A DNA stretch of 64,000 bases, taken from contig NZ_JANHMQ010000005.1 in assembly GCF_024609325.1 (NCBI RefSeq), positions 62,001 to 126,000 on the forward strand, given 5' to 3'. A program made the position numbers and the translations under genes. Of this stretch, positions 9,795 through 17,054 are shown piece after piece (position 1 is the stretch's first letter; each line of letters begins with the position of its first letter). The notes beneath the pieces are model-generated. The model saw nothing but the letters and a program-made list of their open reading frames with translations. It was not told the DNA's origin and ran no database searches. This DNA comes from Geothrix fuzhouensis. Lineage in GTDB: Bacteria; Acidobacteriota; Holophagae; Holophagales; Holophagaceae.

Positions 9795-12107
9795 ATGCTC
9801 CCGTCATTACCGGCCTTGATATCTCTCAGCCTCGTTCTTTTCCTGGGTCCTCCTGGAGTGGAGGCCATGGCCTTGGGGCAGGTCTCCCGTCCACCCCGAT
9901 CCCGGACCGTGGCCCAGACTCCGGTTCCCCTACCCACCCAAATCCAGATCCCGGCCCGGGCGCATGACCGCCGGCTGGAAGTGGCTGATGGTCAGGGCGG
10001 TTGGCGGCCCTTCTATGTCAAAGGCGTGAACCTCGGCGCGGCCCTGCCGGGCAAATTCCCCAGCGAGTTTCCCGGCCGGACCACCTACGACGGGTGGCTC
10101 CGGGAAATGGCCGAGGCGGGCTTCAACACGATCCGGGTCTACACCATCCACCCGCCCGCCTTCTACGAGGCGCTGCGCGCCTACAACCTCGGCGCCCGGA
10201 AACCACTCTGGCTCATCCATGGCGTGTGGGCCGAGTCCCCTCCCCGCCATGATTTCCAGGACCCGGCCTGGCTCGCGGCCTGGCGCCGGGAGATGCGGGA
10301 GGTGGTTGAGGTTCTCCACGGCCGCGCCCGCATCCCCGTGCGCCCGGGGCACAGCGATGGCACATACGGGGCGGATGTCAGCCCGTGGACCCTGGCCGTC
10401 ATTTTGGGCCGCGAGTGGGAATCGTCCAGCGTGGTGGCGTTCAACCGCCAGCATCCGGGCGCCGCGGACTGGGCCGGCCGCTTCGTGACCGTGCGGGGCG
10501 GCCACGCCATGGAACAGTTCCTGGCCCAGAGCATGGACCGCTTCCTGAGCCTCGAGTGGGACCAGTTCCACGCCCAGCGCCCCATCGCCTTCACCAACTG
10601 GCCCACGCTGGACCCCCTGTTCCACATCACGGAAGCCACGGAACGGGAGGAGCGCGCCCTGCGCCAGAAGCTGGGCATGGCCGTCGAGCCGCTGAACGCC
10701 GACATCGACGACGAGGATGCCGTCGGCCTCGACATGGAGAAGTTCGACGGGACACCGGCCTTGTTGGCGGGCCTCTTCGCCAGCTACCACGCCTATCCGT
10801 ACTATCCCGACTTCATGAACCTGGATCCCGGTTATGCCCAGGCCAGCGACCATCTGGGGCCCAGCAACTATGCGGGGTACCTCGCCGAGCTGGTGAAGCA
10901 CCATGCCCGTCACCCGGTGCTCATCGGAGAATTCGGAGTGCCCTCGTCCCGCGTGGTCGCCCACTGGCAGGCCCAGGGGTTGACCCACGGCGGCCAGAAC
11001 GAACGCGAACAGGGCGAGCAGGATGCCCGGCTCCAGCGGGACATCTACGACGCGGGCTGCGCGGGGGGCGTCCTGTTCGCCTGGATCGACGAATGGTTCA
11101 AGAAGAATTGGCTGACCATGCCGTTCGAGCTTCCCTCCGATCGGAAGCCGCTTTGGTACAACGTCATGGATGCCGAGGAGAACTACGGCCTCATTGCCTA
11201 CCGTCCGGGCGCCAAGGGACCCGCGATCCTCATCGACGGCAAGGCCGGGGATTGGGCCCGGGTTCCGGTCTATCTGGATGGCGGCGGCTACACCCTGAAG
11301 GTGCTGGCGGACGAAGGCTGGCTCCATCTGGGGCTGTTCCTCCCTGGTCCAGTGGACTTTTCGAAGCAGGCCTTCCTGGTGGGCATCGACACCGTGGATC
11401 CCCGGCGGGGTGATCACCGGCTGTCCGGTATGTCAGACCTTCGCAGCGAGGCGGGACTGGAGTTTGTGGTCCGCTTCCAGGGCTCGGACCGCACCGGCGT
11501 GTTCGTGGACGCACCCTATGCTATTCCCGAGTTCCGGCCCAGGCCCGACCAGCACTACCGGAGCCTCCCCAACGAGGCAGGCCGGTTCGTCATGCCCACG
11601 GCCAAGAGCAACCATCCCCGGATCGGCCGCGACGGCTCGAGGTTCCCGGGCCACAGCACCGATATCGGCTGGCTCCGCCAGGGCACCCAGGACCGCACCG
11701 ACCCCGCCTTCGATTCCCGGGCCGAGTGGCAGGTGGGCCAAAGCCCGGACGGGCGGGGGTTCCTGGAGGCGCGGATTCCCTGGACGCTGCTTCAGGTCAC
11801 GGACCCCAGCAGCCGGACGGTCCTCGACGATCCCGAGCAGAAGCAGCCCGGCTCTCTGGGAACGGCGATCACGCCCGGGTTCAGATTCGTGTTCGCGGCC
11901 CTCGCTGCCGACACACTCATCGGGGCCGGGAATGGCACTGTTCGCCTGACCCTCCCGACCGCCCGTCACGGACGCATCCCCTTGCCCCCCCTCTTCACCT
12001 GGCCCACCTGGAACCGACCGAGCTTCCATCGCTTCCGCAAGCAGTCCTACACGATCTACCAGAAGGCCCTGGCCGACACCCCCGACGAACCGAGGATGCC
12101 CCGATGA
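9795..12107 (+). CDS. Secreted clan-A glycoside hydrolase with C-terminal beta-sandwich
   Basis: Exported protein of 770 residues. The ATG at 9795 starts a signal peptide (MLPSLPALISLSLVLFLG). About residues 65-460 form a TIM-barrel related to GH2/GH5-type glycosidases: FYVKGVNLGAALPG, GFNTIRVYTIHPPAFY, ILGREWES (likely acid/base Glu) and VLIGEFGVPS (likely nucleophile Glu). About 480-750 resembles a CBM9/DOMON-like sugar-binding sandwich. It is the first gene of a five-gene block ending in a processive GT2 synthase; I infer that it trims or releases the polymer, as PgaB or BcsZ do in other systems. It overlaps the next gene by 4 nt. The exact GH family is uncertain. Confidence 0.75.
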   Translation: MLPSLPALISLSLVLFLGPPGVEAMALGQVSRPPRSRTVAQTPVPLPTQIQIPARAHDRRLEVADGQGGWRPFYVKGVNLGAALPGKFPSEFPGRTTYDGWLREMAEAGFNTIRVYTIHPPAFYEALRAYNLGARKPLWLIHGVWAESPPRHDFQDPAWLAAWRREMREVVEVLHGRARIPVRPGHSDGTYGADVSPWTLAVILGREWESSSVVAFNRQHPGAADWAGRFVTVRGGHAMEQFLAQSMDRFLSLEWDQFHAQRPIAFTNWPTLDPLFHITEATEREERALRQKLGMAVEPLNADIDDEDAVGLDMEKFDGTPALLAGLFASYHAYPYYPDFMNLDPGYAQASDHLGPSNYAGYLAELVKHHARHPVLIGEFGVPSSRVVAHWQAQGLTHGGQNEREQGEQDARLQRDIYDAGCAGGVLFAWIDEWFKKNWLTMPFELPSDRKPLWYNVMDAEENYGLIAYRPGAKGPAILIDGKAGDWARVPVYLDGGGYTLKVLADEGWLHLGLFLPGPVDFSKQAFLVGIDTVDPRRGDHRLSGMSDLRSEAGLEFVVRFQGSDRTGVFVDAPYAIPEFRPRPDQHYRSLPNEAGRFVMPTAKSNHPRIGRDGSRFPGHSTDIGWLRQGTQDRTDPAFDSRAEWQVGQSPDGRGFLEARIPWTLLQVTDPSSRTVLDDPEQKQPGSLGTAITPGFRFVFAALAADTLIGAGNGTVRLTLPTARHGRIPLPPLFTWPTWNRPSFHRFRKQSYTIYQKALADTPDEPRMPR

Positions 12108-13801
12108 TCCATCCCGCACCGCCCGCCCTGCAGGAACCCGCTCCGGCCCCCAACGCCACCGCCCTTCTGAAACAGGCCCGGGAGCTGCGTTCGCAAAAAC
12201 GGCTGCCCGAGGCCGTGGCGGTGTACACCCGGATGCTGGAACGCTGGAAGGATCAGCCCGACGCCCTCCTCGAACGGGCCCGGACGCTGAGCTGGATGAA
12301 GCGCTTCGACGAGGCCATCCGCGACCTCAAGCGGCACCGGGAGGTCCATCCGGAGCTTGCGGCCGAATCCGAACCGGTGCTGGCCCGGGTGACCGCCTGG
12401 TCCGGCCGGTTCAAGGAAGCGGTGCGGATCCTCCAGCCTTACGTCGCCAGGGGCGACCGCCAGGCCACCCTGGATACCGCCACCTATCTGAGCTGGGACG
12501 GACACCTCAATCAGAGCCTGGACCTGACCGACGGTTGGCTGAAGAGCCACCCGGCGGACCGGGACTTCTTCATCCTCCGGGGACGGGTGCTGGGCTGGCG
12601 TGGACGGCACGCCCAGGCGCGCCGGGCCTACCAGGAAGCGCTCCTCCAAAACCCGGGGGACCGCGAAGCGCTGCTGGGGCTCGCCCAGCTGGACCTCTGG
12701 GCGGGCGATCCCGAGGCGGCAGAGCGGCGCCTGGCCAGCCTGGGACCCGAGGACGCCAAGAGCCCCGAGGCGGAACTCATGCGGGCCCAGATCGACCAGC
12801 GCATGGGGCGCCTCCGCCAGGCCCGGAGCCGGACCGAGGCCTTGCTGGACCAGCCGGACCAGCGGGAGGACGCCCAGTCCAGGCTGCGCGGCCTCGCCGA
12901 CGCCCAGGGCCCCTGGCTCGAACTCTCCCAGACCCGCACCGATTCCAACGAAGGGCTGCGGGCCCAGGCCCAGCGGGTGGACGCGGCGATCCCGTTCTTC
13001 GACGGCAGTCTGCGGGTCGGCGGATCCTTCGACCTGCTCAATCAGAGTGGCCTGGCCGAGCGCAAGCCCCAGGAATGGTCAGTGGGGCTCAGCCAGCCCC
13101 TGGGCTCGCGCCTCACGGCCTCGGCGCAGGTGGGTCGGGTGGATGACGTCGGGGGGGATCCGGCGGGCTTCCATAGCCTCGCCCTGGGCTGGCGCGCCGC
13201 ACCGGGATTGAACCTGGTCCTGTCCCATGCCTTCGCGCCGAACCTGGCCACGCCCATGGCGGTGGACCTCCGCACCTACACCCGGACCTGGGGCCTGGGC
13301 GGGGCCTGGGTCTTCAACCAGACCCTCGATCATTTGGCTCTGTCCCTGGAGCGGGCCTTCCTCTCCCCGGGCGCCGCCCGAACGGGCCTCCGGGGAGAGG
13401 CGGGGCACCGCTTCCCCTTCGAGGGGGGAGAATGGCGCGCGGGCCTTGCCAGCCGGTTCATCGACCAGAACCGGAGCCTTCGCATCGGCTTCTTCAATCC
13501 CCAGCGCTACCGGTACTATGGCGCCACGGCCGGAGCCTCACTGCGCCAGGAGGAACGCTGGGAGCTCGCCCTCGATGCCTGGGGGGGAAGCCAGACGGTG
13601 AACCAGACGTCCAGCCAGTTCACCTGGGGGTACACGCTGGCTGGTACCTGGACGCCCGGGGGCTCGGCCGTCTCCCTCTTCGCCTCCTGGGGCCAGAGCA
13701 TGGCGGGCCTGCCCATCGCGGATCCCACGGATCCCACCAGCTACCGGGATCACACCCTGCGATTCGGAATCCGGATCCGTGGAAAACGCTGGATTTGGTA
13801 G
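12104..13801 (+). CDS. TPR protein with C-terminal outer-membrane beta-barrel (PgaA-like)
   Basis: Predicted 565 residues. About 20-290 are TPR-like helical repeats (units such as ALLERARTLSWMKRFDEAI and AYQEALLQNPGDREALLGLA). From about 295 to the end the chain switches to alternating beta strands ending in aromatic Trp (RGKRWIW), the signature of an outer-membrane barrel. This is the arrangement of PgaA, the porin for poly-N-acetylglucosamine. No signal peptide is visible at the chosen ATG (MIHPAPPALQEP) or in the open frame upstream, which is odd for a barrel protein. It starts inside the stop of the glycosidase gene (ATGA), and the response regulator follows after 22 bp. Confidence 0.75.
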   Translation: MIHPAPPALQEPAPAPNATALLKQARELRSQKRLPEAVAVYTRMLERWKDQPDALLERARTLSWMKRFDEAIRDLKRHREVHPELAAESEPVLARVTAWSGRFKEAVRILQPYVARGDRQATLDTATYLSWDGHLNQSLDLTDGWLKSHPADRDFFILRGRVLGWRGRHAQARRAYQEALLQNPGDREALLGLAQLDLWAGDPEAAERRLASLGPEDAKSPEAELMRAQIDQRMGRLRQARSRTEALLDQPDQREDAQSRLRGLADAQGPWLELSQTRTDSNEGLRAQAQRVDAAIPFFDGSLRVGGSFDLLNQSGLAERKPQEWSVGLSQPLGSRLTASAQVGRVDDVGGDPAGFHSLALGWRAAPGLNLVLSHAFAPNLATPMAVDLRTYTRTWGLGGAWVFNQTLDHLALSLERAFLSPGAARTGLRGEAGHRFPFEGGEWRAGLASRFIDQNRSLRIGFFNPQRYRYYGATAGASLRQEERWELALDAWGGSQTVNQTSSQFTWGYTLAGTWTPGGSAVSLFASWGQSMAGLPIADPTDPTSYRDHTLRFGIRIRGKRWIW

Positions 13802-13823
13802 AAAGGCGGTAGACTTTTTCCCG

Positions 13824-14228
13824 ATGACTCGACGCTGGCCAATTCAAACGACGGTCCTGGTGGTGGAAGACGACCCGGCGACCGCGAAGATCATCCAGGT
13901 CCGCCTGGAGATGGAGGGGCTGAAGGTCCTCGTCGCCGCCAATGGCCTGGAAGCGCTTGAGATCCTCCAGCGTGAGAAGATTGATCTGATCTCCACCGAC
14001 CTCATGATGCCGGCCATGAACGGGTTCCGATTGGTGCAAGAGGTCCGGGACCTCCCGCCCCCCAAGGGGCGCATTCCCATCCTGCTCCTCTCCAGCAACC
14101 ACAGTGAGCAGGACATGGTGCGCTGCCTGGCCGCCGGAGCCGACGACTACATGGCCAAGCCGATCTCGGTACAGGTGCTGGTGGAACGGCTGTGGCGACT
14201 TTACGAACGCTCCCATCGCGCGGGGTGA
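13824..14228 (+). CDS. Single-domain response regulator (receiver only)
   Basis: A 134-residue CheY-like receiver with no output domain. The acidic pair is VVEDD near residue 15, the phospho-acceptor Asp is in ISTDLMMP, the switch Ser in ILLLSSN and the conserved Lys in MAKPIS. All key residues are present, so it should be phosphorylatable. It is embedded between the TPR/barrel gene and the HEAT/GT2 genes; I infer post-translational control of polysaccharide synthesis by a distant kinase. Its frame continues past the TGA at 14226 directly into a membrane helix and the HEAT protein, so a readthrough product is possible. I chose the ATG at 13824; the upstream frame runs into the previous gene. 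Confidence 0.9.
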   Translation: MTRRWPIQTTVLVVEDDPATAKIIQVRLEMEGLKVLVAANGLEALEILQREKIDLISTDLMMPAMNGFRLVQEVRDLPPPKGRIPILLLSSNHSEQDMVRCLAAGADDYMAKPISVQVLVERLWRLYERSHRAG

Positions 14229-14318
14229 GTCATCGTCCCCCTTCACCTGCCGCATAACCTGCTTCTGCCCATCCTGGAATGGGCCACGCTCGGGCTGGTC
14301 GCCTTAGTCGCCTTCCTG
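14226..14318 (+). other. In-frame TGA followed by coding-like membrane segment without a standard start
   Basis: The TGA that ends the receiver (14226-14228) is in the same frame as the HEAT gene. The 30 codons from 14229 to 14318 are open and encode a helix-like hydrophobic stretch (LLLPILEWATLGLVALVAFL). They contain no ATG, GTG or TTG, only CTG and ATC as possible rare starts. Either translation starts at a non-standard codon here, or the receiver and HEAT proteins are joined by stop readthrough, or the base sequence carries an error. Confidence 0.6.
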
Positions 14319-15392
14319 GTGCTGGTGGGCACGGCCATGCAGTACCGCAAGGATCGCCTGAACCGGCATCGCATCGCCCGCTATCAGGCCTGGGAGGCCC
14401 AGCTCACGGACTACCTTTTCAAGAAGGGGTATCAGGAGCGGGGCTTCGGATCCATCGCCTGGCCCGACCGCTGGCTGTTCCGGGATTTCCTGGCCCGCTA
14501 TCTGTCCACGATCGCTGGCCAGGAATCCGAGCTGCTCCGCGAGCTCTACCTGAGCACGGGCATCCACCCGTCTCTGCCCCGGCGCCTGCGGGACCGCGAT
14601 CCGAAGGTCCGCGCCCAGGCGGCCAAGGAGATCGCCGTCTTCCGCCTGGATGAACCCGCGGAGCATGCGCCGCCGCCGGTGGCCGAGCGGCCCTGGCGCT
14701 GGAAGCCCGGCATCCGGATGGAGGGCTACATCGATCACGTGCTCCCCCTGCTCGATGACCCTGTCCCCTTCGTGGCCCACACCGCGGCCCAGACCTTGAC
14801 CCATAGCCGGAACCTGAAATTCGCCGCCCCGGTGCTGGCCTGGGTCATGCGGGAGGAACTCTACCAGCGGGAACGGCTGCTCCGGGTGCTCGAAGGCTTC
14901 GGCCCCTCCCTGCTGCCCTGGATGAAGGAGAATCTGGAGTCCCCGGATCAGAGCCCTGAGCCCTGGATCCTCTTCGCCCTGTTGGCAGGCTCCCACCGGC
15001 ACCGGGAATCCCTGCCTCGCTTGATTTGGCTCCTGGACATCCCGAACGTGGATCTGCGTGCTTCCGTCCTCAAGGCCCTGATCATTCTCGCGGATCCGGC
15101 GGTCTATTCGAAAGTACAGGGCTTCGCCGCCAGTCCCGCCTGGGAAATCCGGGCCCAGGTCGCCCGGGCCCTGGGTGTGCTCGGCGGTCCCTCCGCCGTT
15201 CCCGATCTGCTGCCCCTGATGGCCGATCCCGTGTATGAGGTCCGCCGGAATGCCGCGCAGAGTCTCGTGGATCTTGGCCACTCCGGCGTCTCGGCCCTGA
15301 CCTGGCTGGCGGACGATCTCGCGGCGGATCGCTTCGCCCGCGACATCGCCCGGGAGCGGCTCGAATGGGCGGATGAGCGGGGGCACATGTGA
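14319..15392 (+). CDS. HEAT-repeat protein, probably membrane anchored
   Basis: 357 residues from the first standard start codon (GTG at 14319), but that start cuts through a membrane helix encoded from 14229; the true protein is probably about 25-30 residues longer. After the helix comes a basic stretch (QYRKDRLNRHRIARYQ), then alpha-helical HEAT/Armadillo-type repeats: VRAQAAKEIAVFR (about residue 90), VPFVAHTAAQTLTHSR, VDLRASVLKALIILADPAV, WEIRAQVARALGVLG and YEVRRNAAQSLVDLG. HEAT solenoids bind proteins, so I infer a cytoplasmic scaffold linking the receiver to the GT2 synthase. It overlaps the GT2 start by 4 nt (GTGA), which implies coupling. Confidence 0.8.
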   Translation: MLVGTAMQYRKDRLNRHRIARYQAWEAQLTDYLFKKGYQERGFGSIAWPDRWLFRDFLARYLSTIAGQESELLRELYLSTGIHPSLPRRLRDRDPKVRAQAAKEIAVFRLDEPAEHAPPPVAERPWRWKPGIRMEGYIDHVLPLLDDPVPFVAHTAAQTLTHSRNLKFAAPVLAWVMREELYQRERLLRVLEGFGPSLLPWMKENLESPDQSPEPWILFALLAGSHRHRESLPRLIWLLDIPNVDLRASVLKALIILADPAVYSKVQGFAASPAWEIRAQVARALGVLGGPSAVPDLLPLMADPVYEVRRNAAQSLVDLGHSGVSALTWLADDLAADRFARDIARERLEWADERGHM

Positions 15393-16831
15393 CGTTCCGA
15401 GTGATCCTCATCGCCACCGTCGAGTGGAGCATCCTTGCCTATTTCCTGGCCACCAATCTGACGCACCTGGCCTTGATCCTGAGGGCCTTCTTCTCCATCC
15501 GCCGCTACCTGGATGCCGTCGGCATTGATCGCCTCGACACCGCCTTCGAAACCAGCCATTACAAGCCCATCACCCTCGTCTGCCCGGTGCACAACGAAGA
15601 GGCGGGCGCGGTGGCGAGCATCAACAGCCTCATCAGCCTGCGCTACCCCGAGTTCCAGGTGGTGGTGGTGAACGACGGCAGCACGGACGCCACCCTCGCA
15701 CGCCTGCTCAAGGCCTTCAAGCTCCAGCCAAGCCAGCGCGTCCTGCGCGAGCTGCTGCCCACCCAGGAGGTGCGCGGCATCTACGAGAGTGCCTACGTGC
15801 CCAACCTCGTGGTGGTGGACAAGGCCAACGGGGGGAAGGCCGACGCCCTGAACTGCGGCATCAACCTGGCCCGCTACCCTCTGGTCTGCTGCATGGATGG
15901 AGACAGCCTCCTGGAGAACGATGCGCTCCTCCGTATCGCCCGGCCCTTCACCGATCGCCCGGACATGGTGGCCTCCGGCGGCGTGGTCCGTCCCCTCAAT
16001 GGCTGCAAGGTGACCCCCATGGGCATCCGCGGCATCTACCTCCCCGGTTCCTGGCTGGCCCGCTTCCAGATCGTGGAATACCTGCGGGCCTTCCTCTTCA
16101 CCCGCGTGGGTCTGGCCTCCCTGGACAGCATGTTCATCGTCAGCGGCGCCTTCGGGGTGTTCCGCAAGGATGTGGTGGTGGCCGCGGGGGGCTTCGAGAC
16201 CGCCACCATCGGCGAGGACTTCGAGCTGGTCGTGCGCCTGCATCGCTGCCTGCGTGAGTGGAAGCGCCCCCATCACATCACCCTGGTGCCCGATCCGGTG
16301 TGCTGGACCGAGGTGCCCGAGGATTTCCGGGGGCTGGGTCGGCAGCGGAACCGCTGGCAGCGCGGCTTGCTGGAGACCCTCTGGCGGCACCGGAGCATGT
16401 GCTTCAATCCGAAGTACGGCCGCATCGGGCTCTTCTCCATGCCGTATTTCATCTTCTTCGAGGCGCTGGCACCCATCATCGAGGTCAGCGGGTACCTGCT
16501 GTTCGCCGTGTCCCTCCTGACCCACTCGGTCAGTGGCACCTTCGCGCTCCTGTTCTTCTACGTGGCCCTGCTCCTGGGCGTGCTGAATTCCGTGGTGGCC
16601 GTGGTCCTCCAGGAGATCAGCGGCCACCGCTACCAGGGCCTCAAGGCCTTCGGCCTGCTACTCTTCGCGGCCGTGGCCGAGAACTTCGGCTACCGCCAGC
16701 TCACGGTCTGGTGGCGCCTGAAGGGCACCCTCGACTGGATCCGTGGAAGGGGCCATTGGGGCCACATGAAGCGCCAGGGCCTGACGGCCCACCCCGCCCC
16801 GGAAGGGCCCACCCCGCCAGCCCAGGCTTGA
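15389..16831 (+). CDS. Processive family-2 glycosyltransferase (polysaccharide synthase)
   Basis: Inner-membrane GT2 of 480 residues resembling PgaC/BcsA/hyaluronan-synthase-type enzymes. One N-terminal membrane helix (about 5-30) precedes the cytoplasmic catalytic domain. Motifs are D96 in VVNDGSTD, DGDS with D170/D172, GEDFE with catalytic D277, and QRNRW (Q319, R322, W323), the QxxRW motif of processive enzymes. Two or three helices follow (about 350-440). No PilZ domain is attached, so direct c-di-GMP control is not indicated. It begins with GTG overlapping the HEAT stop and closes the operon. The sugar is unknown. A promoter-like -35 for the next unit overlaps its stop codon. Confidence 0.93.
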   Translation: MTFRVILIATVEWSILAYFLATNLTHLALILRAFFSIRRYLDAVGIDRLDTAFETSHYKPITLVCPVHNEEAGAVASINSLISLRYPEFQVVVVNDGSTDATLARLLKAFKLQPSQRVLRELLPTQEVRGIYESAYVPNLVVVDKANGGKADALNCGINLARYPLVCCMDGDSLLENDALLRIARPFTDRPDMVASGGVVRPLNGCKVTPMGIRGIYLPGSWLARFQIVEYLRAFLFTRVGLASLDSMFIVSGAFGVFRKDVVVAAGGFETATIGEDFELVVRLHRCLREWKRPHHITLVPDPVCWTEVPEDFRGLGRQRNRWQRGLLETLWRHRSMCFNPKYGRIGLFSMPYFIFFEALAPIIEVSGYLLFAVSLLTHSVSGTFALLFFYVALLLGVLNSVVAVVLQEISGHRYQGLKAFGLLLFAAVAENFGYRQLTVWWRLKGTLDWIRGRGHWGHMKRQGLTAHPAPEGPTPPAQA

Positions 16832-16856: not shown

Positions 16857-16884
16857 GATCCCTCGATCTTTGGCAGTCCGATAG

Positions 16885-16985
16885 CGCTATCCAGAAAGGT
16901 GGAGGGAAAGGCCCTGTGAAACCTTGGCAACCTGCGACAGCAAGGTGCCAACTCCTGCCCCCGGCATGCCCGGGGGGAAGATACC
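16885..16985 (+). ncRNA. SAM-I (S-box) riboswitch 1
   Basis: The conserved S-box core is present: CCAGAAAGGTGGAGGGA, GGCCCTGTGAAACC, TTGGCAACC and CAAGGTGCCAACTCCTGCC, with a terminal arm (CCCCGG / CCGGGG) and closing GAAGATA pairing to the 5' TATC. It is the leader of the Hcy/MTHFR gene that starts at 17055. No T-tract terminator follows, so control is probably at translation initiation. Its core is nearly identical to the second copy at 23113. Confidence 0.93.
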
Positions 16986-17054
16986 GAACCGTCTCTGACT
17001 GACCCGACCCTATCTGGATGCCGATCTACGGACTGCCGCTTCCCAGGCGCGTCC

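Follow-up and report, generated by a model that had tools for sequence, protein, structure and literature searches.

How is the secretion of a polysaccharide switched on when the genes for making it lack the usual cyclic di-GMP (c-di-GMP)-binding part? The question is raised by a locus of the soil bacterium Geothrix fuzhouensis (Holophagaceae, Acidobacteriota; 3.3-Mb genome), found at positions 9795-16831 of a 64,000-nucleotide stretch of contig NZ_JANHMQ010000005.1, hereafter the window. Five co-directional open reading frames (ORFs) were confirmed there on the + strand. They encode a secreted glycoside hydrolase (GH)-like protein (9795-12107), a tetratricopeptide repeat (TPR) protein with a predicted C-terminal outer-membrane β-barrel (12104-13801), a single-domain response regulator receiver (13824-14228), a membrane-anchored HEAT-repeat protein (about 14229-15392) and a processive-type family 2 glycosyltransferase (GT2; 15389-16831). 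The genes overlap by 4 nt at 12104-12107 (hydrolase/TPR-barrel, ATGA) and at 15389-15392 (HEAT/GT2), and the ORFs, the overlaps and the sequence motifs all bear out the original prediction, from the DNA alone, of five tightly packed genes. We consider it reasonably probable that the locus is a synthase-dependent exopolysaccharide system built around a conserved inner-membrane module of receiver, HEAT and GT2 proteins, in which phosphorylation of the receiver switches synthesis.

Conservation of the receiver-HEAT-GT2 core

We surveyed the locus from two directions. For the first survey, 396 Acidobacteriota genomes were searched with GT2 alone and 77 were positive; 60 GT2 loci were fetched in addition to that of G053, a relative outside Holophagaceae, with some weaker or second places left out. 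HEAT lies directly upstream of GT2 in 58 of the 59 Acidobacteriota loci with upstream room, and HEAT is itself directly preceded by a receiver in 43 of 55. The pattern extends beyond Holophagaceae, where the corresponding counts are 52/53 and 37/49. The second, independent survey used the hydrolase as the query over named genomes and kept 80 loci, mostly from Bacillota. HEAT-GT2 is present in 62 of these, usually with a receiver ahead, a count that includes a HEAT-GT2 fusion seen in two Acetobacterium genomes, the HEAT half of which scores weakly in one copy; several of the other loci end too early. A receiver protein stands directly upstream of HEAT in 59 of 75 HEAT-GT2 loci, a set that includes the Geothrix and plasmid loci. 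The receiver-HEAT-GT2 family is also found in Gemmatimonadota and others, and the pairing is kept in at least three phyla. Going by this pattern, GT2 proteins of this clade have HEAT as a near-obligate partner, and a receiver usually accompanies HEAT.

Closer to home, a GT2 orthologue was found in 21 of 60 relatives, namely exactly those 20 Geothrix genomes that have a strong HEAT match, and G053. HEAT, receiver and GT2 occur together between the same flanking genes in the congeners. The hydrolase is present in 16 of the 20 Geothrix genomes (some contigs are truncated), and also in one incomplete genome whose contig ends at the hydrolase. Two complete or nearly complete Geothrix genomes have the hydrolase-TPR gene pair in inverted orientation, and there these two proteins are ~51% and ~36% identical to those of the window, against ~82, ~74 and ~84% for the receiver, HEAT and GT2. 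The operon of G053 has a lone receiver, HEAT, GT2 and a TPR protein without a hydrolase. Thus, because the hydrolase and barrel vary while three genes stay, the conserved core is receiver-HEAT-GT2, and the hydrolase and barrel are exchangeable accessories.

These comparisons divide the original prediction. Synteny in relatives was found, since the gene order is kept in congeners and receiver-HEAT-GT2 across phyla. An accident of neighbourhood is rejected by the two independent surveys together with the congeners' gene order. The five genes as a single conserved entity were likewise rejected, since the receiver-HEAT-GT2 part persists where the hydrolase and barrel have been lost, inverted or replaced.

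The replacements differ between lineages. At locus L053 (7027-12551), the hydrolase has given way to a different secreted TIM-barrel protein, which together with a TPR protein and a sulfatase/LtaS-like membrane protein stands ahead of barrel-receiver-HEAT-GT2. The same pair of TPR proteins occurs in the Holophagaceae variants L175-L179. These Holophagaceae variant operons suggest a modified polymer.

Features of the core proteins

The GT2 protein (480 residues) has a Pfam Glycos_transf_2 domain (3.5e-19), N- and C-terminal membrane helices and the motifs NDGS, DGDS, GEDFE and QRNRW. The NDGS, DGDS, GED and QRxRW columns are conserved across Acidobacteriota, Deinococcota and Bacillota. By its motifs and membrane helices it fits an inner-membrane processive synthase, a predicted activity, and among solved structures BcsA is the nearest to it in sequence. 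Beside the other GT2 loci of the same Geothrix genome, no HEAT match was found.

The HEAT domain was recognized by Pfam (HEAT_2, 1.6e-19) and is preceded by one transmembrane helix near the N-terminus; exactly one such helix is predicted in 107 of 121 homologues. The flank after the helix is the more positive side in 106 of the 115 homologues with a helix near the start, and from this charge bias the repeats probably face the cytoplasm, where the GT2 catalytic domain is expected.

The HEAT ORF comprises 387 codons from the receiver's stop. Around its start there is no in-frame ATG, and the closest GTG (14319) falls after part of the membrane helix. Across this region (window 14226-14330), TGA-NNN-AT(C/A) is seen at the receiver stop in at least 10 Geothrix genomes, and GGGGTGA ahead of the start could be a ribosome-binding site. 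The gene may possibly use a conserved non-standard start codon, perhaps the ATC at 14232. Programmed read-through of the receiver TGA into HEAT, which is in the same frame, is disfavoured because a sister clade starts HEAT with an ATG after the receiver stop.

The receiver (134 residues; Pfam Response_reg, 1.7e-28) has an intact active site, E15/D16, D59, S90 and K112, and all four positions (ED/D/S/K) are kept in Geothrix and most relatives. Many of the HEAT-adjacent receivers in Acidobacteriota are 126-160 residues long, and so are single-domain proteins. In a receiver tree, most of the Bacillota HEAT-proximal receivers form one clade and those of Geothrix another, with the deeper links unresolved.

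Structure prediction of the hydrolase and features of the TPR-barrel protein

The hydrolase (770 residues) comprises a signal sequence, a predicted clan GH-A TIM barrel and a C-terminal β-rich domain. A search of Pfam and NCBIfam gave no match to it, and a sequence comparison with the Protein Data Bank returned nothing useful, whereas the predicted fold did find relatives. Plasmid-record sequences were removed from the alignments used for structure models. The hydrolase model, built from 51 homologues, is confident (predicted local distance difference test, pLDDT, 93.4; predicted template modelling score, pTM, 0.94). The best match to its TIM barrel is GH157 of Labilibaculum antarcticum, a structure solved with laminaribiose (Foldseek 7.3e-14; Z 33.6, root-mean-square deviation of 2.3 over 315 residues), and GH2 enzymes are the next matches. 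Glu 207 and Glu 379 (E161 and E333 in alignment A5 numbering) are invariant in the 51 homologues and, by their clan GH-A position, are presumed to be the catalytic pair. Judged by this model, the protein is a GH157-like TIM barrel of clan GH-A, with no more than a hint of β-glucan as the substrate.

In Bacillota GH proteins such as that of L088 (6858-10070), a ~350-residue N-terminal domain (LDILIFDKTVPNQSYQEHNG...) without a Pfam match precedes the hydrolase. This same domain is encoded by a separate gene in the Myxococcales locus L103 (10308-11447).

The TPR-barrel protein (565 residues) is a candidate export pore. Its TPR repeats are recognized by Pfam (9.9e-19), and its weak similarity to PgaA and BcsC is confined to this part. 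The C-terminal part is predicted to form an outer-membrane barrel, a call that draws on the sequence pattern and the aromatic C-terminus, RWIW. Homologues in other Acidobacteriota carry a signal peptide.

Comparison with known secretion systems

Synthase-dependent systems are described as having four parts, one of which is a c-di-GMP-binding domain or subunit/co-polymerase, and the published account of the classical systems is that c-di-GMP regulates them by binding their synthase complex (PMC7112194). Relative to these, the c-di-GMP-binding part is missing from the five Geothrix genes, which have a receiver and HEAT instead. The signal-bearing hydrolase, a predicted enzyme, fills the slot of the secreted or periplasmic modification enzyme. 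Pfam and NCBIfam searches of the five genes found no PilZ, GGDEF, deacetylase, PgaD or BcsB, in line with the earlier claim that PilZ, PgaD and a deacetylase are absent from the locus. The three PilZ and eleven GGDEF matches of the genome all lie outside the operon. With synteny, an intact receiver site and an operon free of PilZ and GGDEF, the proposal that receiver and HEAT stand in place of the c-di-GMP module, like the original reading of the gene parts, held up better than a single sequence would lead one to expect.

We compared the locus with the PgaABCD/HmsHFRS system for poly-β-1,6-N-acetylglucosamine and with the Bcs system (BcsA-BcsB-BcsZ-BcsC). It shares a processive-type GT2, a TPR protein with a predicted barrel and a putative secreted polysaccharide-active enzyme with the former but has no PgaD and no deacetylase, the receiver and HEAT replacing the c-di-GMP-binding PgaC/PgaD pair. 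With Bcs it shares the DxD, (T/G)ED and Q(Q/R)xRW motifs, a putative secreted glucanase and a candidate TPR-barrel exporter, whereas the PilZ domain and BcsB are missing and the hydrolase is GH157-like rather than GH8. Membership in either system was ruled out by curated cut-offs, which no protein of the locus passes. The best named family of GT2 is PgaC/IcaA, at 133.6 bits against a cut-off of 422.3; the match to CelA/BcsA is 27.1 bits against 699, without PilZ, and that of the TPR-barrel protein to PgaA is 35.2 bits against 366.65, in the TPR part only.

Two further sets of genes were compared. Many Bacillota operons of Hpt-REC-GGDEF-REC, HEAT, GT2 and GH carry homologues of the receiver, HEAT, GT2 and hydrolase together, but unlike Geothrix include a GGDEF domain, an extra receiver and a hybrid kinase, and have no barrel. 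NELoc-2 of Clostridium perfringens, the closest gene set in print, encodes a 685-residue protein, a HEAT protein and a 'chitin synthase' in the same order, with no assigned role (PMC2879425). The likeness, which is judged by order, sizes and annotation alone, is shared with the Planococcus cluster L041, where a conserved 685-690-residue protein, HEAT and GT2 follow one another. Unlike Geothrix, these Gram-positive clusters add CotH and VTC genes, and have neither a receiver beside HEAT nor a barrel. On the Planococcus plasmid (L041, 3949-11384), a VTC-type polyphosphate polymerase domain, DUF4956, a CotH kinase, a GH-like protein, HEAT and GT2 are laid out as in NELoc-2 (PMC2879425), and the GH-like protein has lost the catalytic Glu. 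Neither of the two has been presented as a HEAT-partnered polysaccharide synthase, and we found no functional description of receiver-HEAT-GT2 in the open-licence literature. The family is probably a widespread and, as far as we found, functionally uncharacterized variant of synthase-dependent polysaccharide secretion.

Proposed control of the synthase

We infer a chain of events that runs from assembly of the complex, through the direction of the switch, to the polymer and its export. GT2 would polymerize a sugar nucleotide and, from its motifs, thread the chain through its own membrane helices. HEAT, with one membrane helix and cytoplasmic repeats, would sit against GT2 in a receiver-HEAT-GT2 complex and couple it to the receiver, which would gate synthesis through HEAT. 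The receiver would be phosphorylated by a kinase encoded elsewhere in Geothrix, no kinase gene being present in the Geothrix operon, and within the operon in many Bacillota. Phosphorylation would alter receiver-HEAT binding, and synthesis would rise or fall. Following the logic of Pga and Bcs, the chain, possibly a β-glucan, would leave this Gram-negative host via the TPR-barrel protein and be trimmed or released by the secreted GH157-like enzyme. We hold more tentatively, at slightly less than even likelihood, a stricter form of this scheme: the receiver would be an integral synthase subunit on a membrane HEAT adaptor, with Asp phosphorylation gating polymerization directly and separately from c-di-GMP/PilZ, and with pseudo-receivers sensing something else in some lineages.

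Several observations weigh against the proposed phosphorylation-switched exopolysaccharide system. About one in five Acidobacteriota loci showed no receiver immediately ahead of HEAT, and copies from Deinococcus, Paenibacillus and the Planococcus plasmid have the hydrolase, HEAT and GT2 with no receiver beside HEAT. Some HEAT-proximal receivers have Asn, Ser or Glu in place of the phospho-Asp, and so phosphorylation cannot be the signal in those lineages. A complex prediction, proposed with the original reading and run with AlphaFold2 (AF2) on the Acetobacterium HEAT-GT2 fusion, gave no confident interface or placement between the two halves (pTM 0.58). No recognizable signal peptide was found at the start of the Geothrix TPR-barrel protein (12104-12160, MIHPAPPALQEPAPAP...) or in its congeners.

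One alternative is that HEAT is an obligatory assembly or stability partner of the synthase, like BcsB or PgaD, and that the receiver is structural or ligand-binding, with phosphorylation minor or absent. HEAT accompanies GT2 even without an adjacent receiver, some adjacent receivers have lost the Asp, and of the two proteins the receiver is the more dispensable. Set against this are the four active-site positions, kept in Geothrix and most other lineages, and the hybrid kinase and Hpt of many Bacillota operons, which are most sensible if phosphate flows. We regard this explanation as unlikely, although it fares best among the alternatives.

A second alternative takes c-di-GMP as the real output, with the receiver controlling a diguanylate cyclase that is part of its own protein in Bacillota and encoded elsewhere in Geothrix, and HEAT or GT2 sensing the product. 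The HEAT-proximal receiver protein is Hpt-REC-GGDEF-REC in many Bacillota, where the same operons continue past the hydrolase with a lone receiver and a hybrid histidine kinase, and the 11 GGDEF and 3 PilZ matches of the Geothrix genome would suit such a route. However, the GGDEF motif is absent from the HEAT-adjacent receiver proteins of all 44 Acidobacteriota loci with such a receiver, and from many in Bacillota; the HEAT-proximal receiver, one clade in most Bacillota, stays in shorter versions without GGDEF; and Pfam finds no PilZ in GT2 or HEAT. We consider c-di-GMP output improbable. The original prediction of an exopolysaccharide synthase switched by phosphorylation rather than c-di-GMP nevertheless needs amending. 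The synthase-dependent system stands, on synteny and the receiver site, but 'rather than c-di-GMP' overstates the case: GGDEF is built into the HEAT-proximal receivers of many Bacillota, and the Geothrix genome has GGDEF and PilZ elsewhere. The two signals may converge in some lineages.

Least probable of all, and only marginally behind c-di-GMP output, is a GT2 product other than an exported free polysaccharide, such as a lipid- or protein-linked surface glycan, with the hydrolase and barrel in another pathway. In its favour, the GH and barrel can be exchanged, and CotH and VTC genes accompany a related clostridial/planococcal version (PMC2879425); against it stand the processive-type motifs and membrane helices of GT2, a secreted GH beside HEAT-GT2 across several phyla and a TPR-barrel-like protein beside GT2 in many Gram-negative loci.

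Boundaries of the locus

The upstream neighbour of the locus is a pyruvate dehydrogenase E1-β-like gene. Downstream, a SAM (S-adenosylmethionine) riboswitch (16884-16987, + strand; Rfam RF00162, 81.5 bits) opens the next transcription unit, of methionine genes, and the locus therefore ends at GT2. A bifunctional homocysteine methyltransferase/methylenetetrahydrofolate reductase gene and metH follow the riboswitch.

Implications for matrix control

A large family of loci, represented in 77 of the 396 Acidobacteriota genomes sampled and in many Bacillota, has a HEAT adaptor and a receiver where the c-di-GMP module would stand. The phosphorylation-switched scheme proposes a function for gene sets that are labelled 'HEAT repeat protein', 'hypothetical protein' and 'chitin synthase', as in C. 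perfringens NELoc-2. Should the receiver act on the enzyme, polymer secretion would come under post-translational control by two-component signalling. This would, if true, provide an answer to how bacteria without PilZ-type synthases switch the matrix on.

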